Source of the DNA: Volvox africanus
Taxonomy: Eukaryota; Chlorophyta; Chlorophyceae; Chlamydomonadales; Volvocaceae
Reading direction: 5' to 3'
NCBI GenBank assembly: GCA_030268105.1
Contig: BSDZ01000008.1
Coordinates: 5,146,001-5,210,000 of the forward strand
DNA: 64,000 bases
Shown here piece by piece: positions 8,581 through 35,400 of this stretch. Below the pieces are notes generated by a model. The model did no database searches. It was given only the letters and a program-made list of their open reading frames with translations, and was not told the DNA's origin. A program made the translations under genes and the position numbers. Positions within the stretch are counted from its first letter, which is position 1, and each line of letters starts with the position of its first letter.

Positions 8581-9289
8581 GCCAGCTTTTACCACTATTG
8601 CGGCAACTGACAAGGCGCCGACCAAGCTGGCATACGTAGTTGTTTAGCAATAATTATTATAATTTAATCATATTTGCTATATTACTTCATCAATGCTTGC
8701 ATGGTTGATGCATAAGTGTGAGAAGTGTGATCTGGGTGTAAAGTATTGCACAAAGGCAAGTTCACGTACGCATCACATAAATAATTATCTAAGAGCGCAC
8801 TTAGACTCATACTGACCAATATTGCTATCTACACCATGGTTACAAAGGCATAAGTGTAATGATGTGAAATAAGATCTGAGCGACAACCATGGCTATTACT
8901 ACACAACCAAATATTGATATTCGGCCATTCACACTGCATAAATACCTGGAAGGCTTGATATTGGCAAGATACTACGTGCGAATATCAGTGATACGCTTGC
9001 TAGGGTTTAACACACTTGCAGATTGGGGATCTGGTGTGTACCGCGGAGCTCTAATAAAAGGCCGAGCTCTAATTTTATTTCCGGTGCAAGCTTTCTAACT
9101 TTATCAGCTACACTAAAAGTAAAACCGGGAGAATCAATTGTTGTAGAAGTAAGGAGTATAAGAATAAAAAATTAAGTGTGAGTAAGAAAATATTGGATAT
9201 ATATTCAGAACCAATATCACGAATATAAGACATGTGCGGACGGCCAGATAATGTAGGCTAATTGCCTAATAATAATAGGACTTTCCCTG
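8581..9289. other. Unassigned, between right copies of blocks B and A
   Basis: AT-rich. It has no chromodomain or protease similarity, so the right-hand element copy lacks the coding part seen on the left. A short plus-strand frame at 8889-9098 has no motif. Confidence 0.4.
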
Positions 9290-9475
9290 ATATTATCATG
9301 TTGAACTGAACTACGCTACATTTGGCCTGAGCCAAGCCTGAGCATTGATAGCCGGTTAAATGATGATGGCCTGGACTCTCATAAGTTGAATATGAACTCT
9401 TTCACTCCCAAAGTCTTCCGCTGCCCCTCAATCTCATCCCAATGTGTGAGCACATCGGCACTTGGCACTTCGGCA
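9290..9475 (-). repeat. Inverted-repeat block A, right copy
   Basis: Reverse-complement counterpart of 5868-6110. It marks the right end of the gypsy-derived region. AT-rich, bacterial-like sequence begins just after it. Confidence 0.55.
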
Positions 9476-10059
9476 AACAGAGTATTTTAAATCCATGATA
9501 CGAAACCATTAATCCAGGACCTTCATGCTGAATTCTCTCTGCATTAACACGTTTTGGAGCGATCCTTTTTTACTAAATAAATCTTGTCAAGAAGTCTTAC
9601 GATAACAATAAAGATATCGGAAAATTTTTCATACCTTGATTATGAATTTAACCTCGATTGTCTTAGAAAGGAAGCGTGCAGTGGAACCTGAATTTGTTTG
9701 GGAGCTTCTATAAAACCTAAAGCTGTTACAAGGGTAGCTAGTGTACATGATTATGCAGAAAGGTGTAATCCTAATAGTCTAGTTCTTTTTTATAGCAAAA
9801 CCAATTAACTTGAGCAATCTAAAAGTAAAAAATACCGTAAGAAAGCTGCCAAGCAAAAACCCAAATGAGATATTTAGCAATGTCCCATTATAACTCATAA
9901 GTGCTATAAATAATACACAATGTAAGAATCTAGTTGCCATTATGGTTGATGATGCTGTACCTCTGATCCCCGGAAAAATATCTTAGGATTTAGTACAAAT
10001 GACCAGATACATTATAGCTGATCCGATTGGATATACCGTCATGAAGCTTGTGGTTAAAT

Positions 10060-10345
10060 AATGTGATTTGGGGAATAAAAATTCTATAAGAATGTTTTGG
10101 TCTCTGGTAAGTCGTAATGCCCCATAACATATTGCTGTAGCTAAAATAATTCTGTTAGGTGGATCTCCATAAAACTCGTCCATAAGAGAAATACTTTATG
10201 CAGCGGTTTCTGGTGGGATACCTTTAGTAAATAAGCCATTAATATTAGCTATAGATCTTAGAAGGTCTCTTACAGGTTCATAAATGTTAATACGCTTTTT
10301 AAATTTATGCATAGCAATTTCCCATAGAGAAATTGATCTCAGACA
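10060..10345 (-). pseudogene. PIN-domain (VapC-family) ribonuclease toxin fragment
   Basis: The minus strand reads SISLWEIAMHKFKKRI, then an acidic/leucine-rich middle, then, after a stop, EFYGDPPNRIILATAICYGA and LRLTRDQNIL. SLWEIA, GDPxxRIIxATA and TRDxxIL are the conserved segments of VapC-type PIN domains, the RNase partner of bacterial toxin-antitoxin pairs. An in-frame stop near 10199 and loss of the N-terminal third make it inactive. Its start is fused directly to the end of the parA remnant, as if a deletion joined the two genes. No antitoxin gene is visible. Confidence 0.62.
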
Positions 10346-10841
10346 AATATGAGTTTGTAATAGATCCATTTCATAATGGACCAATGGCACTTTATATATA
10401 TCTAACTATGGCAGTTTTAACTATTTCTCTATTTAACAAAAAAGCACACTTGATGGTTTTAATATCTTATAAGGGTTCTTATATTTCCTTAATTTATATG
10501 AACCGCTTCACTGGCTGCCCAGATGTTAAAAGGGGGGGTGGCTGTACAGGCATTACCACTAGATCACTTGTAACAATAGCAAACTTAGCAACATCATAAA
10601 TACTAGGAGGTCCATCTATGGCGATATAATAATAATTTTTAGATAGCTATGTTATTTCTTTATGTATAATTGGTTTTGTTATACGAACTACTGTAAAAAG
10701 GCTTTCCTTTTTCCTTATAGCAGCCCAATCTAAAGAACTCCCTTGAGGATCGGCATCAAATAGTAATAATAATGTTTTCAGCGATAAACATGTAGCAACA
10801 CTTATAGAGAGCGTCCCTTTTTTATTAAAAGAAATAATCAT
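10346..10841 (-). pseudogene. parA: ParA/Soj-type partition ATPase, degenerate
   Basis: Minus-strand reading begins MIISFNKKG and contains LLFDADPQGSSLDWAAIRKK, ITKPIIHKEI, then after one stop AIDGPPSIYDVAKFAIVTSD and LVVMPVQPPP. These match the Walker A', Walker B (IDGPP) and following segments of the ParA family, ATPases that segregate plasmids and chromosomes. The P-loop between NKKG and TLS is deleted, so the KGGxGKTT motif is missing. Further frame changes follow toward 10400. Codon use is strongly AT-biased, unlike algal genes. This is a bacterial relic with no function as it stands. Confidence 0.72.
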
Positions 10842-10894
10842 ATAAACATTGAGACGTGCAAATTAGTGCATGAGCAGCGAAGAGGGATACAACA

Positions 10895-11192
10895 GCTTTA
10901 CCCCGACCGAGAGCGGGCCAAAGACCCTAAGTTGAGGGCAGGGTGCCCCCATGTCGATGGACGGTAAAGACCCCAATTAAAGTGACCTGCGAGCTGACCA
11001 GGAGCGGAGTTGACGCCTTAGTTGATTCGGCAGATTCGGCTGGATGCCGGCGGTGGGTGCTGAACCTGGGAAAAGCACTGATTTCGGAGAAGTCGGCATG
11101 GGAGACTGGATGAGGGTGCCCCGAAATACCGGGGAAGGTAGGGACTGCCAGGTTAGTGGCCACGGGTGATGTACCCCCCTATCCCACACACA
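10895..11192 (+). repeat. 300-bp dispersed repeat, copy 1
   Basis: Shares about 300 bp with 12950-13250 (same orientation) and 29517-29812 (opposite). Landmarks in this orientation are GTTGAGGGCAGGGTGCCCC, GTGACCTGCGAGCTGACCAG, CGAAATACCGGGGAAG and GGGTGATGTACCCCCCTATC. Read on the other strand it holds an open frame starting MATNLAVPTFPG. Possible ACAACA duplications flank it. Confidence 0.8.
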
Positions 11193-11204
11193 ACATCTCA
11201 CTCC

Positions 11205-11800
11205 TTGACCAGCAGGGAGGGAGGGAAGCAGGGAGGGAGGGGGGGGAGCAGGGAGGCAGGGAGGGTGTCAGGATGGGAGGAGGCAGGGGAGGCAGGGAGG
11301 GAGGAAAGGAGGGGGCGGGGGCAGGAGGGAGGGAGGGCAGGAAAGAATTGAGGGCAAGGGGGGGGAGGGGAGCAGCAGGGAGGGAGGGAGGGGGGAAGCT
11401 GGTGGCCATTCCTCTTCCGACCCACCTTGCTCCTTAATGGCACCAAGATAACCAAGTACAATCACTGCACGGCCGCGCGGGAGTTCTGAGCGGGTCTGCA
11501 GGAGGGCGCAGAGCAGGAAAGGGGCGGTTAACGGCGCTGACAAAGTCACCTCACTGCCGATGTGGAGGGAGGGATGGAACGAAAGCTAAAGGGGGAGCAA
11601 GGATGGAGGGAGGGAAGGAGAGGGGAACCAGACAGTGAGGAGCATGGAGGGAGGAAGGTAGCAGGGAGGAATGGAAGGGGGCCAGCAGGGAGGGAAGGAG
11701 GGCAGGAGGGTGAGAAGGCAGCAGGGAAGGGGGGGGATGGAGGGGGGCAGATAGAGAGGAAGGGAAAGGAGGGCAGGGGTGCCAGGCTGCGCAGGGCAGG
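11205..11800 (+). repeat. Polypurine G-rich low-complexity block
   Basis: Two stretches (about 11211-11400 and 11560-11790) consist almost wholly of GGGA/GGAA/GCAGG units on the plus strand, separated by ~150 bp of ordinary sequence. Long reading frames across it on both strands are artefacts of the repeat. Runs of three or more G recur every few bases, so G-quadruplex or triplex formation is plausible. Confidence 0.85.
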
Positions 11801-12290
11801 GCAGGGCAATAGGACAAGAGACCAGCAGAGGTATACTTAAAATTTCTCGGGCTAACATCACATTCTATATCCCTTGCTTCAAACAAGCACCTACCTCTGA
11901 GCCTTGCTGTTTGTCATGCCCACCCTTGCCAGAGCTTATGACACAGAATGCATTTGTTGTTCTAGGACTGCAAGGTTCTGACCCACCTCACACAGAAGCT
12001 AACCTACCACCACTAGCTGCTGGAGCTGCCAGGCCTCACACTTCCCTCCAACAGGGGTCATCTGCACTGGCTGTAGTCTTAAAGGTCAACCACAATGCCT
12101 GAAAGAAAAGGAATGCAAACCCATACCTACAGGCCCAATGAAGTTAGCCACTGCTAGGAACATACGGTCTCTTTGCCATCAGGCCCCCCTGACAGCATTC
12201 TCATTATCATGGATTACACCATCCTTTTCTTTGACAATGTACTGAAATATGTGAAAGGCAGAAGGTGTGAGTAGTTAACAGCCGCCGACG
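11801..12290. other. Unassigned stretch between low-complexity blocks
   Basis: Moderate base composition. A plus-strand frame (11779-12102) shows no known motif. Nothing else is supported. Confidence 0.35.
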
Positions 12291-12453
12291 CCGCCATAAT
12301 GTACGAGAGATTTGTATGATCTAACTTTCATCCGCCGGGTTCCTCTTCATTATGGTTAATATTATAGTAATGACCAGTAGGCAGTTTGTCAAAAGGTTCC
12401 AATTCATAATCAGTCATGGTGGCAGCTGCTGGCACCTCTAAACGGCCAGGAAG
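12291..12453. other. Unidentified sequence left of the TAA microsatellite
   Basis: The minus strand has a short frame reading MTDYELEPFDKLPTGHYYNI and on to a stop at 12328, which is not recognised. It may be a further bacterial or algal scrap. Confidence 0.3.
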
Positions 12454-12741
<288 letters not shown>

Positions 12742-12949
12742 GTTACCGCCGCGATTAATATATTTAGTAAAGTTTGCCAAGAGTTATAGGTGTAATCGGC
12801 TAAATCAATAATTTTATTTATTTCCTTTTTAAAGATTTCTATAGTTTCCTTATTAATACTTCCAAGAGCTATAAGAAGTACATAATTTCGCAAATTTTGT
12901 GTTTAGGCACGACTGTTATGGCACAATTTATATGCCCCTGGAATATCAG
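12742..12949 (-). pseudogene. AT-rich fragment, probably bacterial, unidentified
   Basis: Minus-strand frame from 12893 reads MRNYVLLIALGSINKETIEI, continuing with lysine/isoleucine-rich sequence until it enters the TAA array. The composition resembles the rickettsial fragments nearby. I do not recognise the family. Confidence 0.35.
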
Positions 12950-13250
12950 GTTCGACCCCGACCAAGATTGGGTCAAACACCTTACATAGGTTGAGGGCAG
13001 GGTGCCCCTTTGTCGATGGACGGTGAAGGACCCGATTATAGTGACCTGCGAGCTGACCAGGAGCGGAGTTGACGCCTTAGTTGATTCGGCAGATTCCGCT
13101 GGATGCCGGTGGTGGGTGCTGAACCCGGGAAAAGCACTGATTTCGGAGAAGTCGGCATGGGAAACCGGATGAGGGTGCCCCGAAATACCGGGGAAGATAG
13201 GGATTGTCAGGTTAGTGGCCACGGGTGATGTACCCCCCTATCCCACCCAC
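12950..13250 (+). repeat. 300-bp dispersed repeat, copy 2
   Basis: Direct copy of 10895-11192 with scattered substitutions. It opens with GGTTCGACCCCGACC, which resembles a tRNA-type B box (GGTTCGANNCC). The end CCCCCCTATCCCACCCAC matches copy 1. The opposite strand keeps the MATNLTIPIFPG reading frame open. Confidence 0.8.
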
Positions 13251-13519
13251 ACCAATAAATAGTGATTCCCTTGATGCTTCTTCACCAGTCGAAACAACAT
13301 CAATGCAATTACCGTTTTTATCTCTTTTAGAAAAACCACCGAATGAAACGTAAAAATAGAAAAAAAGGATATATGTTAACAAAACAGAGTCTCAAGGATT
13401 AATAAATAGACGAATTTCTGAAATTAAACTCTTTACTCTAGATTTCTAAGTGTTGTTTTATTATTCTGGATATTTTGAATATTATTGATACCGTATTTGC
13501 TCAAAAAAATACGTTACGT

Positions 13520-13884
13520 ATTAATTCCAAGGTACCACAAAAGCCTTTGATGAAAATTTACTTGAATTAGGGCTGGAAAGAAAAATAAATAATATTGTTA
13601 TCATTCGCTTTGAGCAATTATTTCCATTTATAGAAGAAGATGTCGTTAACATTATAAAAATACATCAGGCCGCTTCAAAATTTGTCTGGTGCCAGAAAGA
13701 AACCCGGAACATGGGCGCATGGAAGTTTATACGCCATCAGTTAGATTCGTGCGTGGAAAAAGCAGGAATTGAAGTGCAAGTGACTTATACCGGTCGGGAA
13801 AGGTCTGCATCTCCTGCTGTTGGTTATTTGTATATTCATAATAAACAAGAGGAAGCTTCGGTGCATGAAGCTCTTGAACTTTAA
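13520..13884 (+). pseudogene. sucA: 2-oxoglutarate dehydrogenase E1, C-terminal fragment
   Basis: Plus-strand reading gives INNIVIIRFEQLFPF, FVWCQKETRNMGAWKFI, YTGRERSASPAVGYLYIHNK and a terminal HEALEL stop at 13882-13884. These are the conserved last hundred residues of SucA, which decarboxylates 2-oxoglutarate in the TCA cycle. Everything upstream is missing or decayed; about 13380-13520 is AT-rich with stops. The normal C-terminus is followed 54 bp later by the sucB start, the usual operon order. Bacterial, alphaproteobacterial-like and not functional. Confidence 0.82.
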
Positions 13885-13938
13885 ATAACCCAAACGGGAA
13901 AAGATCGTTTATATTTTAGAGATTATTGGAGAATTTTA

Positions 13939-14000
13939 TGAATGTAGAAATTATAGTGCCAGCTTAAGGAGAATCGGTTTCTTGCCACCCAGTCCGTTAC
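13939..14000 (+). pseudogene. sucB: Dihydrolipoyl succinyltransferase E2, N-terminal scrap
   Basis: Starts ATG at 13939, reading MNVEIIVPA, a stop, then GESVS. It is the opening of the lipoyl domain of SucB (MxxEIIVPxLGESVxEAT). The stop replaces the leucine codon, and the match ends within about 20 codons. A GGAG ribosome-binding-type sequence lies a few bases before the ATG, another bacterial trait. Its place right behind sucA confirms both calls. Confidence 0.78.
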
Positions 14001-14214
14001 GGGGTTAGGAGCTGAATCACTTGCTCCTCAAATATATTTTTCAAGTTCTGATATACCAATTTTTACCGTACCTTTACCTTTCATAACTACCTTCTAGGTT
14101 ATATTACAATAAAATATCACATTAAAGTTATGTGTAACTAATAATATATGTCCTTGCCTCTATTAATTTCATATATTTATTTTATATTTAATATTTATAA
14201 CGTTAGACCGCCGA
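14001..14214. other. AT-rich junction between the suc and pcc fragments
   Basis: No family recognised; stops occur in all frames. The suc pair points right and the pcc pair points left here, so this is probably a rearrangement junction within the bacterial insert. Confidence 0.4.
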
Positions 14215-14620
14215 AGAAAAGAAGGTTAAAATAAATATTATTACGGGAAACCCTATTTGTTCAGCGATTTTTATAGCTTGTTCTACATCATCAATAGAAC
14301 CCATGTAACCTGGAACTGTACTAACACCGGAAGCAACGGCAATTTTTTTGCTTCAATTTATCACCCATAATCTTGATTACTTTGGCACTTGGTCCTATTA
14401 AAGTAACACCTCCTTTTTAAGACATTGGCAAAATTTGCATTGTCTGGTAAAAAAACCATATCCTGGGTGAACAGCATCCGCTCCACTTTCTCTAATTGTT
14501 GTAATAATGTTTTTATTGATAGGTAACTTTCTGTCGCCGGTGAATTACCTATATAATAAGCTTCGTCTGCATATTGTACATGTTGAGCATTAGTATTTGC
14601 TTCCGAGTAATTAGTGTGTT
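14215..14620 (-). pseudogene. pccA: Propionyl-CoA carboxylase alpha chain fragment
   Basis: Minus-strand pieces across several frames read VQYADEAYYIG, TIRESGADAVHPGYGF, GPSAKVIKI, KIAVASGVSTVPGYMGSIDD and VEQAIKIAEQIGFPV. These are, in order, the N-terminal and start of the ATP-grasp part of a biotin carboxylase subunit. Several single-base indels break the frame. It follows pccB on the same strand, as in Rickettsia. The enzyme carboxylates propionyl-CoA to methylmalonyl-CoA; this copy cannot. Confidence 0.8.
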
Positions 14621-14798
14621 TTTTTCATGGCTTCTTTACTGACTTAGTGCGTAAATGTTTTAAAGATTTACGTATCCTCCACCTAGTATTTTGCGGTTTC
14701 ATAACATCATCAACATAACCTCTTGAAGCAGCCACAAAAGGAGGAGTAATAGTTTCTTTATAATTAGCTATTATTTCCTTTTTTCTTTGAGGATCTTT
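14621..14798 (-). pseudogene. pccB: Propionyl-CoA carboxylase beta chain, C-terminal part
   Basis: The minus strand reads KDPQRKKEIIANYKETITPP, FVAASRGYVDDVM and LKHLRTKS, the C-terminal carboxyltransferase segment of PccB. It continues exactly from the codons at 19100-19125: the lysine-aspartate pair is split by the copia element and its AAAGA duplication. It is separated from the rest of pccB only by that insertion. Confidence 0.85.
14794..14798. repeat. Target-site duplication, left
   Basis: TCTTT directly outside the left LTR, matching 19095-19099 outside the right LTR. Five bases is the usual length for copia-type integrases. Confidence 0.85.
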
Positions 14799-14889
14799 TG
14801 TTGAAGTCTGCAAAGCGCCCGGCCCCTCACTGGGCCGTATTCCTTGGTCTGACATTCTTTCGTACATGAGTGTTGCTCACATTTCATCA
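14799..14889 (-). repeat. Copia 3' LTR, 91 bp
   Basis: Read in element orientation it starts TG (TGATGAAATGTGAGC) and ends CTTCAACA. It is nearly identical to 19004-19094, apart from changes including the first eight bases and a few single substitutions. A purine-rich GTGGGGGTGA just upstream in element sense (14890-14900) is a fitting polypurine tract. Confidence 0.88.
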
Positions 14890-14976
14890 CCCCCACATGA
14901 GCGATACTCCTTCGAGCTTCACGGTTACATGACGGCTGCCTCGTCCCGGCCTCCCTGACCTGGTCAACAGCCAGAG

Positions 14977-15003
14977 GGATTTGAACCGGCGACCTCTCGG
15001 CCA
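14977..15003 (-). promoter_or_regulatory. tRNA-like box pair in the copia 3' region
   Basis: On the minus strand, TGGCCGAGAGG (14993-15003) resembles a pol III A box. It is followed after 5 bp by GGTTCAAATCC (14977-14987), a perfect B box with T-arm-like flanks. The spacing is far too short for a real tRNA, so this looks like a collapsed tRNA or SINE piece rather than an active promoter. Confidence 0.35.
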
Positions 15004-15389
15004 GCCGCGCATGTGCGCTCGGGGACCATAACCTATTGAGACGTAGACTATCAGAGATTAGGAAGCCTCACATAAATACGAGAAAGTAAAATTACATATT
15101 ATCTGATAGTAAGGAGTCCGAATAGTTCGTTCTGGAGTCGGCACATATACTTGTGCGTATAGCACTACAAACAGTACGAACGCGGGTCGATAGCTTACCG
15201 CCGAGTACAGCTACAACAGCGGGATTGTTGCTAGTATGGATCGCTATATCCAACTGATATACCATTTTATAACACGCCCCCTCGAGACATGCCTAGCAAC
15301 AAGTGAAAGAAGATAATTCCAACCAGGGATTCTTCTTGAAACCGAAAAGCTAAAGCCAAACGAGTTCGCCCCAAACAAACTTAGAAAGC

Positions 15390-16600
15390 TTACTCGGCCA
15401 ACCCCATCGCCGTAATGCACTTCTTAAACTTTATCTCTCCAAGTGCCTTGGTTAGCACATCTGCTACCATATCCTCCGTCGAACAGTGCGATAAGGCAAC
15501 TTCCTTCAGCAGGACTCGTTCTCGCACTAGATGATGTTGCACGTCGATGTGCTTAGAACGAACCGACATTATCGGGTTATTCCCAAGGCTCATCGATCCC
15601 TCAGAATCCGTTCGAATCTGAATAGCCTGTGTCCTCAGACCCAAGTCTCTGGTCAGCTTGCAAAGCCAAAGTGCCTCCCGCACTGCAGCTGCCGTGGCCT
15701 GGTACTCTGCCTCCACTGTTGAAGCTGCCGACGTGCGCTGCAATTGGCTGTTCCAGCTGATAGCTGCGCCGTTTAGCAAGAATACGTAGCCAGTTGTGGA
15801 CCTCCGAGTGGCTGGATCTCCAGCCCAGTCGGAATCACTGTAGCCCACCATGGTGAGATCGCCATCTCCGTCATAGCATAATCTGAGCTCCTTGGTACCC
15901 GCCAGGTATCGCAGCACCCCCAAAGCCAAGCCCATGTGAACCTTAGATGGGTTGCCCATGAAGCGCGCCAGAACGCTCATTGCCTGCGCGATATCCGGTC
16001 TTGTGCTCGTCGCCAGGTAGTTCAATTCGCCGACAAGCGCCCTGTACTTGGTGTTGTCTACGAGCTCCTTGTTGTTGTCTTCTGCTGGCAGGGCTCTAGT
16101 ACCAGGAGGTAGTGGGGTCTTTCGAGGCTTTGCATTGACGAGTTGATGTCGCTGCAGCAGCTCCTCAATGTAGCGTCGCTGCGATAGTTTTACCTCCCCG
16201 TGCGCTCCCCGGCTGATCTCCATGCCCAGGAAAACTTTTGCCTCTCCAAGATCTCGAATCTTGAAGGCTTGTCCGATTTCTGTTTTCACTCTCCTAATCA
16301 TTGCCTCGTCTTCTGAGGTGATGATGATGTCGTCCACGTGCACCAGCAGGTAGACGATCTCCTTCTCGTCCTTTTTGATCAACAGTGCTGGGTCCGCTAC
16401 TGACGGTTTGAACCCCAGCTTGTCCAGCTCCGCCGCTAGCTTCATATACCAGCAGCGTGGGGCCTGTTTCAGCCCGTAGATTGAGCGTAGAAGCCTGCAC
16501 GCCTGCTCTGGATCTGCTGACTCGTAACCAGGCGGCTGCTGCATCCAGAGCTCCTCCTCTAGCTCCCCGTTCAGGAAAGCTGTTGAAACGTCTAGCTGAT
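15390..16600 (-). pseudogene. Copia reverse transcriptase and RNase H
   Basis: The frame from 16544 runs 384 codons to a stop at 15390. RT motifs are QLDVSTAFLNG just upstream in a neighbouring frame, IYGLKQAPRCWY, and the catalytic LLVHVDDIIIT (a V-D-D version of the usual YVDD). RNase H follows with YSDSDWAGDPATRRSTTGY, VEAEYQATAAA and IRTDSEGSMSL, so all three acidic residues are present, and it ends with ADVLTKAL. In the element these copy RNA to DNA. The N-terminal side of RT is damaged: DYGE at about 16618 jumps straight to HQLDVS, missing the usual 25-30 residues between them. Confidence 0.92.
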
Positions 16601-17424
16601 GGATAGCTCCCCATAATCAATCCCCGCCCGCTGCTCGTAGCCCTTCGCCACCAAACGTGCCTTGTAGCGCTCGATCTCGCCATCCTCTGCACGTTTGACC
16701 TTATACACCCACCGACAAGGCAGAATCCGCGCACCTGGCGGTGGTTTTGCTAGCTCCCAGGTCCCATTTGTGAGCTGTGCTGAGATTTCCTCATCCATGG
16801 CACTTCTCCATTCCTCAGCATATGGGCCGTCAGTGGCCTCCTGGTATGAAGCTGGCTCTGGTACTTCTTCCTTGATTGCAGCATTGATCCGCCCGAACGT
16901 AACCCTTCCGTTGGGCTCATGCCTCCATTCAATCAGTCGCTTTCGCTCACGTAGCGGATAGCGACGTTCCTGCATATTAACGTCTGCACCGTCGTTGTTG
17001 TGGTTTTGCTGCTGCACCGGCCCTTCGCCTGTCATAGCGTCTCCACCATTGCCTCCGCGGGACTGCGCTGTATTTTGCGTCCTGGGAAACTGTGCTGCTG
17101 GTATGCCTGCGTGCCTCTGTGGCGCCGCTGTCTGGCCGCTGCTGGTGGATGCACCATGGTTCACTTCAGCAGCTCCCTGGTCCATGTCGGTGTTGACCGG
17201 CGTATCTCCGCCGCCCCCTGGCGACGGAACGCCACCAGACTCCTCGACATCCTCCTCGTCGGAATCCTCATAGCGATCTCCAACTGTTGACTCGTCGAAC
17301 TTGACTGTCGAGTGGGTGCTGATGAGATTGTTGATCAAGATGCGGTACTGCCTCCCTTGCTCGTATCCAACCAGCACTCCTTTTTTACTCACGGGTTGCA
17401 GTTTGTTCCGCTTCTCCTCGGCAC
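16592..17424 (-). pseudogene. Copia integrase C-terminus, linker and start of RT
   Basis: The frame reads KKGVLVGYEQGRQYRI, the conserved C-terminal motif of copia integrase. A long acidic and Gln/Asn-rich linker follows, then YPLRERKR, EWRSAMDEEISAQLTNGTWE and CRWVYKVKRAEDGEIERYKA, then RLVAKGYEQRAGIDYGE, the opening of RT. It is one frame away from the upstream integrase core, so a single-base-type frameshift at about 17425 splits Pol. A deletion near 16610 then separates it from the rest of RT. Confidence 0.85.
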
Positions 17425-18612
17425 GTGTGCATATGCGGTACTGCCGAAAACTCTCAGATGGCTTATGTCCGGCTTCACCCCCATGAACGCCTCATGGGGC
17501 GTTACTGATGGCCCCACGACCGGCGAAACGTTGCGCAAAAGATTCGCCGTAGCCATGGCTTCTGCCCAGAGCTTCTGCGGTAGTCCTGACTCCACCAGCA
17601 TTGCCCGGGTCTTCTCCAATAGGGTCCTGTTAAGGCGCTCCGCCGCCCCATTCTGCTCCGGCGAATACCCAACGGTCGTACCATGGATAATCCCTTTTTC
17701 GCCGAAGTAGGCGCTCATGGCTGAGTTAAGGAACTCGGTCCCACGATCCGTGCGTGCCTCCTTCACGCGACGGCCAGTCATATTCTCCAGCGCCTCGATC
17801 ATTGTCTTGACCTTCTTTCGAACTGCGTCCTTGGTCTCCGTGAACGCAACAGTAGAAAATCCCGTGCAGTCGTCCAGCAATGTAGTAACGTACCGGGATC
17901 CACCTATCGAAGTCTCAGGCATAGGTCCACAGACGTCCAGGTGTATCAGGCCCAGAGGTTTCGCCGCCTTGTGTCCAGTGGACGGGAATGGTCCACGTGT
18001 TTGCTTTGCATAAATGCAGGGCTCGCAGATCCGCGACCTGGCTGCTTCCAGACTCGTGTGATCCAAATCCATGCCGGTTACCATGTGTTCCCGGCACATA
18101 CGTTCCAGGCTCTTGTAGCCCAGATGCCCCAAGCGCCGATGCCACAGCGCTGCCTTTGAGCCTTCTGACACGGCCGCCGCACATGAGCGGCCTTTCTTGG
18201 CTAAACGCCCTGCTGTGTGATGGCGAACAACATAGAGGCGTCCCACTTTGTCTGCGCGTATGATCGTCCTCCCCTTTGCTTGCACGAGTGCTTTGTTGTG
18301 GCCCAGCTGAATGGTGGCGCCACGCTCATCAAAGATCCCTGCTGAGATCAACTTCACTGTCGCCTTGGGCACCACATAGACGTTCTTGAGCTCAATTTGC
18401 AGCCCCTTGACGGTGTTACTCCACATGGTGTAACGGCCCACGTGGGTCGGCTTATACCTGGAGCCATCGTAGCCAACCACCGTGAACATTTCTTCTGGCT
18501 GCACAGCTCTCACGTCCTCCAGCTCTGTCGCGTCGTAGGTGATATGCCATTCTGACGCTGAGTCCAGGTGCCAGGCGTTCGACCGCGACTCGTTTCCAAC
18601 TGCATACGCCAT
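17425..18612 (-). pseudogene. Copia protease and integrase core
   Basis: It begins just after the Gag remnant. The protease active site reads WHLDSASEWHIT (about 18550-18575); copia proteases normally have DSGAS, so the glycine is missing. The GAG-pre-integrase zinc region has LWHRRLGHLGYKSLERM and CEPCIYAKQ (HHCC). The integrase catalytic triad is LIHLDVCGP, EARTDRGTEFLN and SPEQNGAAERLNRT, with all three acidic residues present. Integrase inserts the DNA copy into the genome. The frame then shifts near 17425. Loss of the protease glycine suggests that this copy could not process its own polyprotein. Confidence 0.9.
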
Positions 18613-18639
18613 TTTTGTGGGCTCCCTGTCGTAGTGCTA

Positions 18640-18916
18640 CCTTTCTCGTGTTGCAGGTTGATGCGAACGTAGCCGCCAAAGCGTCCCAGGCGGTCTTCAC
18701 ATTTGCCGCCCGAACAATTGTTTGGAGGTGATGGTTCTTTACGTTCTTGGCCATCACACTCTTGACCTTGTCGGAGATGATGACATCCGCCTCTGCAATT
18801 GGTGCTTGTAGCAGGGCGCGACTGTATCCAAGCTCCGCGCAGAACAATTGGAATCGTAGTTTCCAAGTTGAGTAGTTGTGTAGGTCCAGCGGCTCGTCCA
18901 GCCTATCCTTTCCCAT
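18640..18916 (-). pseudogene. Copia Gag, truncated
   Basis: ATG at 18916, 87 bp inside the 5' LTR boundary, reading MGKDRLDEPLDLHNYSTWKL and DKVKSVMAKNVKNHHLQTIV, then AWDALAATFASTCNTRK. This is the N-terminal Gag (UBN2-type) domain of copia elements. The usual continuation, including the CCHC zinc knuckle, is absent. After about 95 residues the homology jumps to the protease frame beginning at 18612, which indicates an internal deletion at about 18610-18650. Confidence 0.8.
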
Positions 18917-18985
18917 TGTGAAGACCTATAAACGCGAAGATCAACACTAGAATGGGCAAAAGATGTCAGGCTCCGCGGTCAACAA

Positions 18986-19003
18986 TGACCGGGGCTCATA
19001 ACC
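18986..19003 (-). promoter_or_regulatory. Copia primer-binding site for initiator tRNA anticodon arm
   Basis: The plus strand here reads CCGGGGCTCATAACC, ending right at the LTR. GGGCTCATAACC equals the anticodon stem-loop of plant-type initiator tRNA-Met, with the CAT anticodon in the middle. The element would thus be primed by a 5' half-tRNA ending just past the anticodon, as known for Drosophila copia. Confidence 0.7.
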
Positions 19004-19094
19004 TGTTGAAGTCAGCAAAGCGCCCGGCCCCTCACTGGGCCGTATTCCTTGCTCTGACATTCTTTCGTATATGAGTGTTGCTCACATTCCAACA
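19004..19094 (-). repeat. Copia 5' LTR, 91 bp
   Basis: In element sense it runs from TGTTGGAATGTGAGC to GACTTCAACA, with TGTTG/CAACA inverted ends. It matches 14799-14889. Confidence 0.9.
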
Positions 19095-19099
19095 TCTTT
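19095..19099. repeat. Target-site duplication, right
   Basis: TCTTT, the partner of 14794-14798. Confidence 0.85.
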
Positions 19100-19485
19100 G
19101 CATTTTTGTCTAAAAATAACTTATGCTGCACCGTCAGCCCCCATAACTGCAATTTCTGAGTTAACCCAGACATAACTAATGTCTCCCCGAAGGTGTTTTG
19201 AATTCATAACAAGATAAGCACCGCCATAAGCTTTTCGAGTGATAACGGTGATTTTAGGAACAGTAGCTTCTGCGTAAGCATAAAGCAGTTTTGCTCCGTG
19301 CTTGATTATACCACTTGTTTCTTGCTCAACTCCTGGAAGGAAACCAGGGACATCTACTAATGTTTCTATCGGAATGCTAAAAGCATCGCAGAACCTAACA
19401 AAACGAGCAGCTTTTCGAAAAGCATTTATATCCAAACATCCGGCTAGGTGAAGAGGTTGATTTGCCACAAACCCTAAAAATATTT
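19100..19485 (-). pseudogene. pccB: Propionyl-CoA carboxylase beta chain, middle part
   Basis: The minus strand reads [79 protein letters not shown] and [17 protein letters not shown], ending [11 protein letters not shown], a stop, then VIFRQKCKD. This is the acyl-CoA-binding carboxyltransferase half of PccB and very close to bacterial sequences. The stop sits where Val-Glu is expected. The N-terminal half is missing upstream. The copia element starts immediately after; the remaining C-terminus resumes at 14798. Confidence 0.9.
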
Positions 19486-19637
19486 TAGATAAACACCTAA
19501 ATAATTATAGTAATTTAATCAATACAACACAGATTTATGCTGTTTCTATACTTTATTGTTTAGTCCCCAAATTATTAATTACAGAAAACTTTGATCTACG
19601 TATTCTTACTCATTATATTTTAAAATTTTGAAACTTT

Positions 19638-19860
19638 TTATACAAAAGTTGGTAAATGTCCGTCTATTTCTCTGGTAGAGGCAATAATCATTCTATCAGC
19701 AGGATCTTTATGGTCAAAATCCGGTAAATTACATTCAACAAACGTTATAGCAACTAACGTTTTTGCTTCGCAGAAGGAATTCTTATAATATTTTTTATTA
19801 ATTGTGCTTGAATTTTGAAAGTATTTAGCAATTGTGATTTCTTTTATGAAAAACATATCC
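19638..19860 (-). pseudogene. Second PIN-domain (VapC-like) fragment
   Basis: The minus strand reads LPDFDHKDPADRMIIASTRE followed by IDGHLPTFV. KDPADRMIIA is the conserved C-terminal block of VapC-type PIN ribonucleases. The N-terminal part is isoleucine/lysine-rich and poorly matching, so the gene is truncated or rearranged. It differs in sequence from the PIN fragment at 10060-10345 and no antitoxin is seen. It is a relic only. Confidence 0.55.
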
Positions 19861-20490
19861 CTAATAACCTCCGGGTACTGTAGAAAAACCTACCAGATTT
19901 TTCCAATTATCCTGCCAGGATTTTGCTGAAATATGGAGGAATACTCATGAATGAACCTTGACTATCGCTTATATCTAGTATGAATTGTATATGAATTATC
20001 GCATGAGAGGGATTTATCAGGTTTAGGTAGAATATTCTTAAGCTTAGCGAATTATTGATTGGTACAATAATAATGCATACCTCTTGCTCTATTAACTCAA
20101 TTTTAATTCAGTTTTCTAGCCGTTAGGATTTTAACTTCCCTTTCATTCTAAATCATTGCCTCGGCTAATACCAATTTTTTGTTATCTACATCTTGCTTTG
20201 AAGACTAAAACCACTTTTCATGAAATAGTAAAATTTTAAAAGAAAACCATAAATGGCCCACAAAATAATTTATTAAAAAGTAATATACATATATCAAAAA
20301 TCATACTTTTCTTCTGCCTTCGACGATTTATCCATTTGAAACGGAAAAAGTGCTTTCGGAAACTTTCCCGAAAGAACAGGACAGCATATTGCTGCTTCTG
20401 CTGATTCTCCAAATAGTGCTGATAAGTTTGCTATTCAGGTTTTTGGTGACTTTGGTAAGAGCCATACCGGAGTTATTGATTTAGGCAAGC
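19861..20490. other. AT-rich end of the bacterial insert, unidentified
   Basis: At 20350-20480 the plus strand reads ERTGQHIAASADSPNSADKF and AIQVFGDFGKSHTGVIDL without a stop. It looks like real protein, but I do not recognise the family. GC content rises sharply after about 20490, taken as the insert's right edge. Confidence 0.35.
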
Positions 20491-24915: not shown

Positions 24916-26770
24916 AGGAAGGCCCACAGAGGTTATGGGATGGCAAACAGCGGCCCACTGCTGTGAATCGTTTTATAATGGGGACCGACTCATATCTGTG
25001 CCCTGCTGGCAAGCAGGGGAAGAAACGACAGATGTCCCTGATATGCCATGACATGCTGAATTCGGAAGGTCCAGGCCGCCGCGGATCCCACGAGTTGAAA
25101 GGTCGTAGGGATCTTACGCAGGGATCTAAATACTCCCGCCAAAAGAGAACGACCCTTTCAATCTGGTCGTTGACAACTCGCAGTTGCATAAGGTGATCCA
25201 AGGAGGCATTATCCATATGGTGAAGATCCAAGCTGGTTATCAGCAGCCAATTCAACATGCCATTCGAATACCAAACAGGCTGATCTGGATGCGGCATATT
25301 TTGCTGCTGCGACCACCATTGCGGTCGTTGCCACCCGCTGAAACGGCGGTTGCCAGTTGCCCGGTCGCTTTCACTTAGCGCCCAGCGCATGACCTGTCAC
25401 CAGCATACCGAAAACTGCCCAAGGACAACCCAGCACAATGTGCTTTAGCCCTAGCCCCACAATGCACTTTGGTCTAATGGTGCAATACCCACTGCGAAAC
25501 CCACCCAAGCCGTGCATCGCAGCCCGCCCACCCAGCCTGCCCGTCCAGCCCGCCTGTCCAGCCTCCCAACCCACACGATTACCGTTTGGCGGTCAAACAC
25601 TTCTACCCACCGGTGCAGCCCTAGCGTCACGGCTCCAACCACCTCGCCACCCGACATGTGCGGCAAGACTGCAAAATCAGTAAACGCCCCTCCAGTCGCC
25701 GCCGCCAGTTCGGCAAGGTCATGGGGCAGCCGAGACATGGCCGTAGAGGCAGGGTTGGTGGTTTCGCTACCACCGCCGCCAAGGCTACAGGCTGTGACGG
25801 CCCCACCGCCAGACCCGAAGGGCATTCCCGCAGGGGCCACCCTGGAGCTGTGCGGAGACGAGGCGGCTATGGACGCGGCCTGGCGATCGGCTCCCTGTGA
25901 ATTTCCTAAATACTGATGGCAGTTCAGCGGGTCAACGAGGCCTGCTGGCGCTCCTGCTGGCGCTCCTGCTGGCGCTCCTGCTGCCGCTGCGGCGGGTGTC
26001 CCTTCGTTGCGGCCATCTTCAATACACGAATACACTGTGATCATCTGCGATGGCGGCATGACGGTAACTACGGAAAGACTTTCCAACTGACGCACAAACC
26101 AATGCTCGTGCCAAGCAAACAACACTATGCCAAAGGAGGGATAGGAGAAGGATTGGGCAGGAGCCTGAGGCCCTGTCGGGCACAGCGTTTGAGGGCCGGC
26201 GCCGAGCGCTACTTCACAAGAGGGAACGACAGCTGCGAATACCAAGAAACGCATTCAGTTGGACAGCCGTCATCCACCGCACACCAAGCATGTGGCGGAA
26301 AGCCAAAGTGGTCAGGTGAGTGATTTCTGGACGTCTGGACGTCTGGGCGTCGCTCACGGCACAGATCGCCATCGGTCGATGTTACCACTACAACCTTCGC
26401 AGCGAGAGCAGCTCTGGCCAAGGCCTTTGCGTCCCAATCCTGACCTAATCTGGCTCAACCATGTATGGCTGACGCCATGCAAGGCTGATCCCTGGCTGTC
26501 ACTGATCCTGATTCCCCGTGCCCCTTTTCCCGGGCTCACGGCGCTAATGTGAGGGCTCCTCCCCTTACATTGATGGCATGGGCCCTCGCAAGCACGCACG
26601 CACGCACGCCTGGACCCGCTGCAGGCTGTTGGCCTGGCGGTCACCCAGTGCAGTGCGTGCCGCCGCGTGCCTCCCGAGGCCTGAACTACAAAGTAGGTTC
26701 CGTCGCTAGAGAGAGCCCAAAGCCTGCGTAGTAAGGGAGAGGCCGAGTGTGGAACAAGGCTATGGTCCAC
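24916..26770 (-). pseudogene. Inverted partial duplicate of the GAF/kinase gene front
   Basis: Over 1.85 kb this is the reverse complement of 32104-33898 at roughly 95% identity by eye. It keeps the exon reading [20 protein letters not shown] with its acceptor and GTGAGC donor. It also keeps a 267-codon open frame (25451-26254) equal to the GAF-like region, with [13 protein letters not shown] and [12 protein letters not shown]. The kinase domain itself is not duplicated. It differs from the right copy by indels, including about 85 bp present here (25070-25155) and absent there, and 24 bp missing near 26650. Truncated at both ends, it is most likely non-functional. Confidence 0.8.
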
Positions 26771-29516
26771 AGCATACGTAAATCGTTTGTACGGACTATT
26801 GGTCGGCGTCCGGATACATGTAAGGAACACAACATCACCTTGGCCGTTTTCTTCAGGATGGATCTGTTCATTGACTGCTATCATGCCGGCTGAAATACCG
26901 TGATATACCTACGGCCCCACAACCAAGAGGCCCGCGGGTCCCCTTCCTCTCCTCACCCATCTCTGTCGCTCGCCCCGGTGTGTCTATTCCCCGTCGCTCC
27001 TTATGCTGCAGGGGTCATCTGTTGAATAGCCCGTTCGAGGACAACACGATCCATGTGGTTTACGTCCTCCACAGCGGTCGCTGGAGGTCTTCGATTGCAT
27101 ATCCGGAGGTACCGCGCAGAGACCTTGACATCCAGGCCGTGCCATCACGCGCCTGACATTTGGGATAATGAGACAAGATGCATGGGTGCCGTCGACGGGC
27201 TTTGTGACGAAAGCTTGGGCTTTCATTATGGAATTACCATGCAAGGTGTTGCCAATTGACATATATTGCAGGATTCATATCTGCCACGTGCGTGTGTCCA
27301 CAGGGGAGCTGTGAGATGTTTGGACGACCCCCTTGAGGGCCTCCTGTTCATATCCGCCAAACCGTTGAGGCCCGATCGATCGGAAGATGTCCAGTTTCGT
27401 GGTCGTCCCGGATGTTAGCCGTAGATGCTATATATACCCCGTCAGGATACTTCAGACCTCTAACACTAATGAAGCAGGGCCACGCAGCATGCGTACGTGA
27501 CATATACATGTATACATCTTGTCATCTCTGTGTCGGCTTGTCTGCGGGCCTCGACCCTGAACAACACAAAACGAGCCTCCATCTTGTGGACCCCGTCCAG
27601 GCAACTTCTGTAAGACCGTCCTGGGCCCTGATCCTCCGGGGCTCCAGGTGCGTGGGTGGTGCGATGGCTGGGGTCCTGGTTAGGCTGGGTGGTGCACTGA
27701 GAGGCGCATAGCAAGCACGGTAAGTCGTACAGTACCCTGTCTTAACGAGTAAGTTGTCACTCCGCAGCTATTCGCCGTGTTGTGACACATGATGGTTTAC
27801 GAATTACCGTCATGTCTAAGAAACCCGCCACCCACCCTGTCGCAGAATAACTAGGCTGGATAACGTAAATCCCGACTTACAGAGGCTTCTTCTCGGCAGT
27901 AGCTTCGTCAAGCAGTAGCCACAACGGTGGCGTCTATCGGTGGCTTCTAACAGAATGTGTCGTGGCCGGCCACTGGTCCAACTTGAAACAATTTGCAATT
28001 CACTGGCCCTCAGGAGTTTCAGGTCTTGCAAGCAGGAGTTGCAGGGTTTTGCGGGTTTCTGGTGGAGTTAGGTGCCAAGCCGATCAGCGGGGCGGCACAG
28101 AATATGGGGAACTGCCAAGCTGATCAGCGGGGCGGCATAGGGTTAAGGGTTTTGAGCCCGTTCAGCAGGGTGGCATGCGGCGCTGCTGTTCATTTGGTGG
28201 CATGCGGCGCTGCTCTCTCTGATTTGGCAGCGCTTGGGCAGTTGGGGTTCAGCTGAGCAGCTGCCGCAAATGGCAAGCTGCAGAGATGGGAGCGTGAGTC
28301 ATCGGTAACAGCATGTGCAGAACGTGATGTCATCGCCGGCAGCGACAACGGTTCTGCTGATGGAGGCGATAGTGGTGGTGGTTTCCGCGTGCTCGCCCCA
28401 GGTCCTGGACTTTTGGAATCAACTCGATTCACATCTGTCCGCGGTGGACGCGCTGCTTGGTCCGGTAGAGACGCGTCAGCCCAGGATGGACACTGTGATT
28501 CCAGTTTGACGAGGGGCTGTTGGGGACGTTGGTTTCGGAGCTGCGAACCCGCAATTAGGCGGCAGTCGCGACAACGGCGCTAGTCTCAGCGACCCCACAG
28601 CGACAATGACCACAATGACCACAATGGCAGCAGCGCCAGGATGGAGTTGCAACCGCCGGGTCATACGAGGCCTTTGCGTTGTACGACACATATCGTACAT
28701 AGCTCTTCGCGCGGCTGGAGTATAAGCGCAGGTAGCTGAGGTGTTTGTGGCATATCGGCAAGTTGTGGAACATGCGCTGCCTTGTTCGTTGGCGTGCATG
28801 GTACTTGTGCAAATTATGCCCTTCCATGCGATCATGCCCTTCCGTACGAGCGGTAAGGGCCGCATGATTGGACTGGGCATTTAGTGTATCCTTGTAATCC
28901 TGTGATAATGCATTATGAGGGGACCATAGAGATGTAGAGTACCGGTTACAACGGTTGCCCGTTGTCAGTCTTCCTACCGTAGCTTAATTAGGCATGACAT
29001 AAAAAGGACACTTCTAACCCTTTATTGTGATGTACAGAAGCTGACTCCAGGGAAGTTTGAAGAGCTCTACTACAGATTCAAAACCCTGCGTAATGACATA
29101 TACTAGTGGCCTTTCATTTGCGGGATGCACCTTCTGTTGGATAGGATGCTGGATGGATGCAAAAAATGGCCATCCCCCGTGTATCTCAGAGGATCTCGGT
29201 GACCAAACAAGGTGTAACATCAACACAGCAGCACCAAGCTTGCACACAATCAACGGGTCCAACAATTCCCGACAATCGACTGGGGCTGCTGTGTAAAAGG
29301 CAGCGCTAACATGCCCTCTTCAGATTCGTCTGCAAGTTAATTGTTGCAGCAACGACGTTTAATTAGTTCGTCTTGTAGGACTCGGAGTGGCTATTACAGA
29401 GACCGGTTGTTGTGGTAGTATGGATGGATATGGGGGTCTGTCTAGGCACTCCTGGAGAGTGGTGAGCAGGCGATTGAACAACAGCTATGCAGGCATATCT
29501 TTAGTTGTGTGTGTAG
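26771..29516. other. Spacer of the inverted duplication, no gene assigned
   Basis: Small local duplications only. A 27-bp unit with GATCAGCGGGGCGGCA occurs twice at 28075-28140, GGCATGCGGCGCTGCT twice at 28170-28215, and GACCACAAT tandem repeats at about 28606-28626. No protein family was recognised. Confidence 0.4.
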
Positions 29517-29812
29517 GATAGGGGGGTACATCACCCGTGGCCACTAACCTGGCAGTCCCTACCTTCCCCGGTGTTTGGGGGCACCCTCATCCAGTCTCCC
29601 ATGCCGACTTCTCCGAAATCAGTGGTTTTCCCAGATTCAGCACCCACCACCAGCATCCAGCGGAATCTGCCGAATCAACTAAGGCGTCAACTCCGCTACT
29701 GGTCAACTCGCAGGTCACTTTAATTGGGGTCGTCACCGTCCATCGGCATGGGGGCACCCTGCCCTTAACTTTAGGGTCTTTGACCCGCTCTCGGTCAGGG
29801 TAGAACCTAGAA
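29517..29812 (-). repeat. 300-bp dispersed repeat, copy 3 (inverted)
   Basis: Reverse-complement match to 10895-11192 and 12950-13250. The plus strand holds the 88-codon frame starting MATNLAVPTFPG. TTGTGT-type sequences flank both ends and could be a target duplication. The repeat ends with GGTAGAACCT on the plus strand. Confidence 0.8.
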
Positions 29813-32462: not shown

Positions 32463-35400
32463 GATTGGAACGCAAAGGCCTTGGCCAGAGCCGCTCTCGC
32501 TGCGAAGGTTGTAGTGGTAACATCGACCGATGGCGATCTGCGCCGTGAGCGACGCCCAGACGTCCAGACGTCCAGACATCACTCACCTGACCACTTTGGC
32601 TTTCCGCCACATGCTTGGTGTGCGGTGGATGACGGCTGTCCAACTGAATGCGTTTCTTGGTATTCGCAGCTGTCGTTCCCTCTTGTGAAGTAGCGCTCGG
32701 CGCCGGCCCTCAAACGCTGTGCCCGACAGGGCCTCAGGCTCCTGCCCAATCCTTCTCCTATCCCTCCTTTGGCATAGTGTTGTTTGCTTGGCACGAGCAT
32801 TGGTTTGTGCGTCAGTTGGAAATTCTTTCCGTCGTCACCGTCATGCCGGCATCGCAGATGACCACCGTGTATTCGTGTATTGAAGATGGCCGCAACGAAG
32901 GGACACCCGCCGCAGCGGCAGCAGGAGCGCCAGCAGGAGCGCCAGCAGGAGCGCCAGCAGGCCTCGTTGACCCGCTGAACTGCCATCAGTATTTAGGAAA
33001 TTCACAGGGAGCCGATCGCCAGGCCGCGTCCATAGCCGCCTCGTCTCCGCACAGCTCCAGGGTGGCCCCTGCGGGAATGCCCTTCGGGTCTGGCGGTGGG
33101 GCCGTCACAGCCTGTAGCCTTGGCGGCGGTGGTAGCGAAACCACCAACCCTGCCTCTACGGCCATGTCTCGGCTGCCCCATGACCTTGCCGAACTGGCGG
33201 CGGCGACTGGAGGGGCGTTTACTGATTTTGCGGTCTTGCCGCTCATGTCGGGTGGCGAGGTGGTTGGAGCCGTGACGCTAGGGCTGCACCGGTGGGTAGA
33301 AGTGTTTGACCGCCAAACGGAAATCTTGTGGGTTGGGAGGCTGGATGGGCAGGCTGGGCGGGCTGGGTGCGATGCACGGCTGGGATGGGTTTCGCAGTGG
33401 GTATTGCACCATTAGACCAAAGTGCATTGTGGGGCTAGGGCTAAAGAACATTGTGCTGGGTTGTACTTGGGCAGTTTTCGGTATGCTGGTGGCAGGTCAT
33501 GCGCTAATTGCGCTAATTGAAAGCGAGCGGGCAACCGGCAACCGCCGTTTCAGCGATTGGCAACGACCGCAATGGTGGTCGCAGCAGCAAAATATGGCGC
33601 ATCCAGATCAGCCTGTTTGGTATTCGAATGGCATGTTGGACTGGCTGCTGATAACCAGCTTGGATCTTCACCATATGGATAATGCCTCCTTGGATCACCT
33701 TATGCAACTGCGAGTTGTCAACGACCAGATCTAAACTGCCTGGACCTTCCGAATTCAGCATGTCATGGCATATCAGGGACATCTGTCGTTTCTTCCCCTG
33801 CTTGCCAGCCGGGCAGAGATATGAGTCGGTTCCCATTATAAAACGATTCACAGCAGTGGGCCACTGTTTGCCATCCCATAACCTCTGTGGGCCTTCCTCT
33901 CATACACGACATCTCCAATCTCTTTCGCATGACTCCCGCACATCCAGGGCGCAAATTCCACCGCAGCGACGCTCCGGCAGTCGGAAGGACGATGCCTCAC
34001 GCCGTAATTCGGCCCCAAATAGCACCGTCCCTGTCGCCACTACTGTGACCGACAGCGGGATTGCGACCACCGGCGGCGGTGGTGGCGCGGTTGTTTCTGC
34101 GGTCGCAGCTACCTTCACGGGTGTTCAGCGCTCTCCGTCATCGCTTACTGACCGCATCCGCCGCGCCCTTACCCGGGATAGGGACAAGGACCGGGAAGAC
34201 GAGGACGCCTCTGGGCCCATCAGCCGCGCCGGTAGCGCCACAGCAGGCGGTCAGAAGCAAAGCGGCTGTCGGGTGGTAATGTCCGCAACCGCACCTGCTG
34301 CCGCCAGCTCCCCTCCTCCTCTACCCTCGATCTGTTGGCTGCATTCTGCTGCGAGCGTGTACCAGTTGAGCCAGCTGGCGCATTTCCTTGGGTATGGCTT
34401 TTTCTCGGACACGGAACAGTCATCGTTTGTGGCGCAGAGCTGCAGCTTGGTCAGCGGGGTGTCGGCCGCGCCGGATGTGCAGGTGGGCTGGGGAAGGCAA
34501 GGTGGGGCTGGAGGACGCCAAACGCAAATATTAGCAGTGGCTGACCTGTGACTGAGCCCCCAGTTGCCTAGAGCACACAAATGAGCCTCCTGATGTCGTG
34601 TGAAACTCCAATGCTGTCAGTGTGGGCTGCTGCAGTGCCGTTGTGCTACAGGCTGAAGATGGGAGCATGGGTCGCCGTTTTGCACACGGGGCCTTTGCTA
34701 CGGGCCAGGGACACACAGCTCATGTTGTCATGTTATGAATATGAAAGCAACATGAAGGGGAGCTATTTGAGTCGGGCACGCATGTGCTGTAGCCACCTGA
34801 ATGAGTTGGCCCTACGCAGTCTGTGCAGCAAAAGTGGGTACCCCAACACGCCCACAAGTCCGTCCGGTCCGCGCCCGTCTCGACCTCGGACTAACTACGC
34901 TAAATCTTGACCTACCCTCATTGTACCTTGTCAATCAGAACCTTGTCAATTGCCTCATTGGGACGTCCAAGAGCCTTATATACCAGCGCTTCCGGCTGCA
35001 GGTACGATCCCTTGCATCCCAGGTTCATCATTACGCAGTCCTCAGGCTGGGGACCTGGAACATCAGGGATCTAATCAGGGAGGGCTCGGAGTCGGGGTTC
35101 CAAGGGGGAAGGGGGCGCAGGTTGGTTACATTAGCACGGGTACCCACACCCCACGTAGCAGTAAGTACTAGCCGCACGGCCCCTTCAGACATACGGTAGA
35201 CTTTCTGGTTTGATGTGTAACGCGCTAGCTATCCGTATGGATAGCGCCAAATTGCAATGGTCTAGCACGCAACGTGGCGTGCCATAATGTCATGCTGCGC
35301 CCCACTGGGCCTCAGGCCCAATGCCTTGTGGCACTGGTTCACAGCAGCGGCACCACCGCCGCCTTTTTTAAGCAGCAACGCACACCGCGCGGCTCTACTG

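Follow-up and report, generated by a model that had tools for sequence, protein, structure and literature searches.

A patchwork of rickettsial DNA, probably shredded 'Candidatus Megaira' sequence, in the nuclear genome of Volvox africanus

In Volvox carteri EVE, one 9 kb rickettsial insert with pieces of 16S, murB, ddlB and ftsQ is reported (Kawafune et al. 2015, PMC4324946). Complex nuclear copies of organelle DNA (numts, nupts and numins) are described as joining several non-contiguous fragments per insertion, with the hallmarks of end joining (Portugez et al. 2018, PMC6215612), and among nuclear transfers from Wolbachia, Brugia malayi is reported to hold at least 115.4 kb (10.6%) of wBm (from PMC4299567, PMC3849323, PMC2882956). 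Here we analysed a 64,000 nucleotide (nt) stretch of Volvox africanus (contig BSDZ01000008.1, positions 5,146,001 to 5,210,000; hereafter the window, whose coordinates are used throughout) that contains, at 9069–20471, a block of rickettsial DNA inside a chromosome-sized contig. We consider it likely, with good confidence, that this block represents shredded 'Ca. Megaira' DNA in a complex nuclear insertion, in which ligated scraps were captured repeatedly and later decayed. The original prediction, made from the letters of the sequence, had a single endosymbiont fragment with its left border at 9476 enter the nucleus, decay and be invaded by host elements. The rickettsial donor, the nuclear setting, the decay and the later host elements are upheld below; the single fragment gives way to about 20 non-contiguous scraps, and the donor DNA begins at 9069.

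The window lies within a contig of 5.68 Mb (C8) in a eukaryotic genome of 141 Mb and 126 contigs. A host copia element and a host repeat are embedded in the donor DNA on this contig, as expected of a nuclear insertion. The pieces assigned to the donor, 3,575 bp in total including a ParA fragment, have a GC content of 34% compared with 53.1% for the window outside 9069–20471, which agrees with the AT-rich character predicted for them.

Patchwork composition of the block

The window was compared by blastn with the whole 1,448,425 bp chromosome of genome G023, which we take to be 'Candidatus Megaira' MegNIES296, described from the alga Mesostigma viride (PMC9098888). Hits were counted at E ≤ 0.01, and further pieces came from the G024 sequence that was compared (its first 1.2 Mb plus some loci), as well as from matches in G024–G026. 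Against G023 there were 23 hits, 22 in 9069–20471 and one at 43420–43486, and with the window reversed there was no hit. About 20 donor pieces can be distinguished in the block, 19 of 35–430 bp and a pccA-pccB piece of about 0.95 kb, which has an internal deletion of 177 bp and is split by the copia element. Their sources range over the 1.45 Mb donor chromosome from 50 kb to 1.44 Mb, in either orientation and without colinearity, so that the one bacterial block of the prediction could not be maintained; multiple non-contiguous donor fragments share one insertion, as in a complex numt.

At the left end, 9069–9142 (-; G023 756098–756025, 96%) is exactly abutted by 9143–9209 (+; G024 1439863–1439928, 84%), which is without a match in G023. 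A short piece at 9468–9519 (+; G023 1306645–1306696, 81%, E 8e-5) is followed by two more that abut exactly, 9521–9618 (+; G023 599951–600076, with a 24 bp deletion) and 9619–9699 (+; G023 50047–50129, 82%), then by 9707–9762 (+; G023 1425717–1425772, 88%) and 9772–10086 (-; G023 805931–805611, 83%), a region also copied on contigs C4 and C122 of the same genome. Farther along, 12751–12877 (+; G023 548124–548250, 86%) continues at 13254–13359 (+; G023 548246–548355), this one contiguous donor piece being interrupted by a 376 bp insert (12878–13253) that carries a host repeat of about 300 bp. The sucA 3' end and the sequence beyond it (13556–13982, +; G023 1399069–1399496, 87%) abut 13983–14149 (-; G024 925285–925119, 86%), for which G023 offers an alternative over window positions 13984–14157 (+; G023 965388–965561, 83%). 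A weak piece at 14201–14235 (+; G026 contig 167, 89% over 35 bp, E 1e-4) precedes the pccA fragment at 14236–14610 (-; G023 438310–438688, 90%, five indel events), and the pccB 3' piece at 14609–14798 (-; G023 438866–439055, 89%) is separated from the latter by a donor gap of 177 bp.

Beyond the copia element, the middle piece of pccB occupies 19094–19476 (-; G023 439050–439432, 90%, no indels), its first base being common with the copia end. To its right lie 19535–19583 (+; G023 909041–909088, 88%), 19733–19859 (-; G023 606498–606371, 77%) and, abutting it, 19860–19927 (-; G024 1025938–1025872, 90%; G023 1439037–1438964 from 19856). The last five pieces are 19998–20104 (-; G026 contig 8, 85%), 20104–20199 (+; G023 1186845–1186943, 82%; G026 87%), which overlaps its neighbour by 1 nt, 20204–20282 (-; G023 1208101–1208023, 92.5%), 20294–20340 (-; G023 1214415–1214369, 87%) and 20386–20471 (-; G023 890807–890722, 95%; G024 86%). 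A separate donor scrap of 68 bp is found about 23 kb from the main block, at 43420–43486 (+; G023 1000498–1000565, 93%; G024 94%).

Seven of the 19 joins in the block show an overlap or gap of only 0–3 nt, the join ends being approximate where the references have diverged: 9142/9143, 9519/9521, 9618/9619, 13982/13983, 14235/14236, 19859/19860 and the 1 nt overlap at 20104. At a blunt join, an overlap of 0.76 nt is expected by chance. G023 and G024 differ in the placement of the ends at two joins, by 1 and 4 nt.

The element that splits pccB is a Ty1/copia retrotransposon (14799–19094, -) with gag_pre-integrase, rve and RVT_2 domains, the integrase ahead of RVT_2, and 91 bp long terminal repeats (LTRs) of the form TG...CA that differ at 5 of 91 sites. 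The predicted TCTTT duplication of 5 bp stands at either side of it. The two pccB pieces have abutting donor positions (...439055 and 439050...), with an overlap of six bases that contains the duplication and no indel in either, and this supports the prediction that the halves rejoin in frame. Non-donor DNA also fills 10863–12750, which comprises a copy of the same repeat of about 300 bp (10899–11192, also at 29508–29802), a purine-rich stretch and a long TAA array. By eye, the array is very long (12458–12741) and, like the purine-rich stretch (~11200–11800), stands between donor pieces. Elsewhere in the window, the frames 25454–26254 (-) and 32648–33412 (+) form an inverted duplicate, nearly identical over their first 60 residues. 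Among ten long open reading frames (ORFs) of the window, Pfam recognised retroelement domains in four and no family in six; an Rfam search of the window and a PDB search with one of its ORFs gave no match.

Gene fragments, donor and age

The coding content of the block agrees in large part with what had been predicted. The C-terminus of SucA is encoded at 13525–13881 (+; Pfam E 2e-27), and in blastn the similarity to the 3' region of the donor sucA extends to 13982; the start of sucB, the other half of the predicted pair, was recognised by eye only. Pfam likewise recovered the expected PccA at 14206–14352 (-; E 2.8e-5) and PccB at 14628–14876 (-; E 1.5e-8) and 19124–19504 (-; E 3.3e-53). The parA fragment was confirmed as two pieces matching the NCBIfam profile ParA_partition, 10497–10646 (-; E 2.9e-8) and 10650–10862 (-; E 2.3e-10), which together make up a bacterial ParA partition ATPase fragment (10497–10862, -). 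Both scores are far under the curated whole-protein cut-off, as expected, because these are fragments. A 36 bp match to G023 inside it (10751–10786, E 0.004) was dropped from the list of pieces as weak, and the fragment was possibly plasmid-borne. No Pfam or NCBIfam family was found at E ≤ 1 for 19641–19889, so the PIN domain placed there was not recovered. The nearness of sucAB and pccBA in the window is a product of the patchwork; on the donor chromosome they lie about 0.96 Mb apart (at 1,399 and 438 kb, respectively).

The SucA piece was searched against 85 genomes from the family of G002 (a Rickettsiaceae metagenome-assembled genome, L005), of which 75 matched; amino acid identity was 78–79% to G023, G024 and G026, 67% to G025 and at most 54% elsewhere. 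With PccB, 17 of 18 genomes searched gave a match, at 90–92% for G023–G026 and at most 88% for the 13 others. The trees place both in a clade with G023–G026, SucA with 96/99, the bootstrap not yet being settled (15 of 16 loci, the incomplete L087 omitted), and PccB with 95/90 (all 16 loci from the 18-genome search and five of the 80 loci of an earlier set); several other forks are weak. The rickettsial origin that had been proposed is upheld. On these sequence comparisons, the donor of the window pieces is assigned to 'Ca. Megaira', a genus name that depends on G023 being MegNIES296.

For 11 of 14 chosen pieces, those with G024 DNA, the window differs from G023 by 8.4% at first, 4.8% at second and 20.8% at third codon positions, and 12 indel events fall within the reading frames; G024 differs from G023 by 1.4, 0.3 and 4.0% at these positions, with no indels. 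From these rates, most of the difference between the window and G023 is divergence of the donor strain, and simple arithmetic on them puts nuclear decay at roughly 3–4%, of the same order as the LTR divergence. At 20386–20471, G024 is farther from G023 than the window is.

Donor DNA elsewhere in the genome

A search of the alga's own genome with 9476–10476 revealed two further places, on C122 and C4, each with several non-colinear donor pieces. At C122:330–333 kb, eleven pieces of 31–86 bp are packed within 0.7 kb, with seven of ten joins at 0–3 nt, and at C4:538–541 kb there are three pieces, the longest of about 0.9 kb. Letters were compared at the window, C4 and C122; the remaining own-genome loci are known through match coordinates. 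At three nuclear loci that carry the same 72 bp donor stretch, 10/66, 10/67 and 3/72 sites depart from G023, and the nuclear copies differ mutually by 9/67 to 12/61. This small sample of sequence suggests that there was more than one transfer, or more than one strain of donor.

To sample more widely, four donor tiles of 20 kb (80 kb, 5.5% of the donor chromosome) were searched against the same genome and gave 39, 42, 45 and 48 matches, these being minima in three tiles (40 of 60–72 candidates scored). As a control, 20 kb of Wolbachia wStur around pccB gave two matches, one of them the window's own pccB. The total is at least 174 matches on at least 40 contigs, the window's sucA piece included. 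Among the matches listed, 22,382 of the 80,000 donor bases (28%) are covered at least once, 148 of 174 represent distinct donor intervals (median length 110 bp, longest 1.9 kb), and 28 pairs of non-colinear neighbours (≤3 kb apart, >3 kb apart in the donor) occur at 12 places, compared with a mean of 0.65 and a maximum of 5 under random placement (2000 trials). Among these places are C5:744–750 kb, where seven pieces represent all four tiles, and C25:1246–1248 kb, with four pieces. Extrapolation by a factor of 18.1 gives about 3,150 matches and 0.63 Mb, a rough figure that assumes typical tiles (one was picked for its known sucA piece) and counts in host amplification and a multi-copy donor element. 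It suggests that donor scraps number in the thousands across the nuclear genome.

In the first tile, a single 255 bp stretch accounts for ten of the 39 matches; it adjoins, and runs 30 bp into, an ORF resembling a recombinase or transposase by eye, and is probably the multi-copy donor element. Structural RNA was considered as a source of inflated counts and rejected: the four tiles contain four tRNAs and one transfer-messenger RNA (tmRNA; two models) but no rRNA match, and of the sampled matches one lies inside the tmRNA while another shares nine bases with a tRNA. The tmRNA gene of Megaira is matched at C16:3345895–3346147. The longest sampled fragment, of 1.9 kb at 82%, is at C77:5024121–5026003. 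Some pieces recur: a 252 bp Megaira piece has at least nine copies at C98:116436–146712, spaced mostly at about 2.0 and 3.75 kb, as donor DNA inside a host repeat array, and a 172 bp donor piece (tile L190:9946–10117) has at least 13 copies on C125, C55, C45, C3, C10, C122 and C11.

Origin of the insertion and known systems

We propose that endosymbionts would have lysed within the host cell and that their DNA would have been cut to short fragments. These scraps may then have been ligated by end joining, a postulated step, and captured as nuclear breaks were repaired, in repeated events or from at least two donor strains. Subsequently the inserts would have decayed and taken in host elements, the copia in pccB among them. 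In Chlamydomonas transformation, DNA from lysed cells can reportedly be cut by endonucleases, with the fragments concatenated at one site or inserted independently (PMC6952782). By analogy, the observed pattern would result if lysed endosymbionts went through this process.

Several points tell against such repeated capture of ligated scraps. In the block, 12 of the 19 joins are not tight: four have gaps of 4–11 nt, and eight contain longer stretches, either unassigned or of host origin. With a divergence of about 12% in the donor references, the ends of pieces can be off by a few bases. Each tight join was counted against the reference that matched best there, and all joins are those of the assembly, as opposed to raw reads. 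A total of 1,269 bp of the block (GC 32.3%) is without a donor match. For ParA, the Megaira sequence that was searched contained no convincing counterpart at the DNA level, and against plasmids one of its pieces reached at best 52% to a non-rickettsial ParA, the other none. At C4 the pieces are spaced 12 and 276 nt apart, a single C5 cluster supplies 11 of the 28 neighbour pairs, and the three-locus comparison covers 72 bp only. Finally, pieces of up to 1.9 kb and near-colinear clusters (C23, C100) are present, so not all inserts are finely shredded.

A single contiguous segment of the endosymbiont chromosome that entered the nucleus, and was rearranged and decayed in place, would account for the donor order kept inside some pieces, such as pccA-pccB and the sucA 3' region. 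The pieces are drawn from 50 kb to 1.44 Mb of the donor, from both strands and at a scale of 50–100 bp, and C122 shows the same scattered pattern; as matters stand this contradicts the idea, barring a donor strain that carries its genes in this order, and we regard it as highly improbable. Shuffling may instead have happened once, before or at entry, with one concatenated molecule then copied around the nucleus. Amplification in the host of pieces such as those of 172 and 252 bp speaks for copying of this kind; it is hard to reconcile with the predominance of distinct donor intervals among the sampled matches and with the lack of a common piece order between the window, C4 and C122, and this explanation appears unlikely.

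An artefact of the assembly or library, or contamination by live Megaira DNA, has in its favour that the joins come from assembled sequence, and we give it very little credence. A host copia element with its TCTTT duplication and a host repeat sit inside the donor sequence, the window pieces carry indels that are absent between live strains, and the matches are spread over many contigs. Furthermore, the murB-like sequence known from V. carteri EVE was sought with MurB_C, which had no match in this genome and was positive in 10 of 14 control genomes; this speaks against the presence of a whole Megaira genome, provided that the profile detects Megaira murB. Contamination, which the original prediction considered excluded, is better described as made very unlikely by the copia, the repeat and the indels.

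Capture of ligated scraps, our preferred explanation, suggests that an algal nucleus can receive the DNA of bacterial endosymbionts as it does organelle DNA, in ligated scraps and in very large number. If true, the frequency, timing and mechanism of endosymbiotic DNA transfer could be measured in a host that is non-phagotrophic, and lost symbioses would have left a fossil record. More tentatively, and at somewhat short of even chances, the nuclear genome may be a recorder of long-running Megaira infection, with thousands of scraps from several waves or strains, arranged in mosaics and in part amplified as host repeats; past symbioses could then be read and dated without a living symbiont. As a caution, a short bacterial match in an algal assembly is not necessarily a contaminant.

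Among the papers listed in our searches, outside which subscription papers, preprints and supplements fall, none was seen that reports an alga with mosaics of bacterial endosymbiont DNA throughout its genome. The V. carteri EVE insert, as published, is similar in its Megaira (hydra group) donor, nuclear location, adjoining truncated gene pieces and inserted host repeats, and the truncation of its 16S next to murB resembles an outcome of the same process; it differs in comprising, as reported, a single 9 kb locus of four genes, whereas here about 20 pieces of other genes and many loci genome-wide are involved (PMC4324946). Having no MurB_C match, the present genome either belongs to another alga or is without that locus. 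Complex numts, nupts and numins, as described, share the several non-contiguous fragments in one insertion, but have organelle donors, whereas the donor here is a bacterial endosymbiont with a 1.45 Mb chromosome (PMC6215612). As in the nuclear transfers reported for Wolbachia, which range from fragments to whole genomes (PMC4299567, PMC3849323, PMC2882956), Rickettsiales DNA resides in a host nucleus. Against the at least 10.6% of wBm reported there for Brugia malayi, 28% of the 80 kb of donor sampled is represented here, in distinct pieces with a median of 110 bp and with mosaic neighbours.

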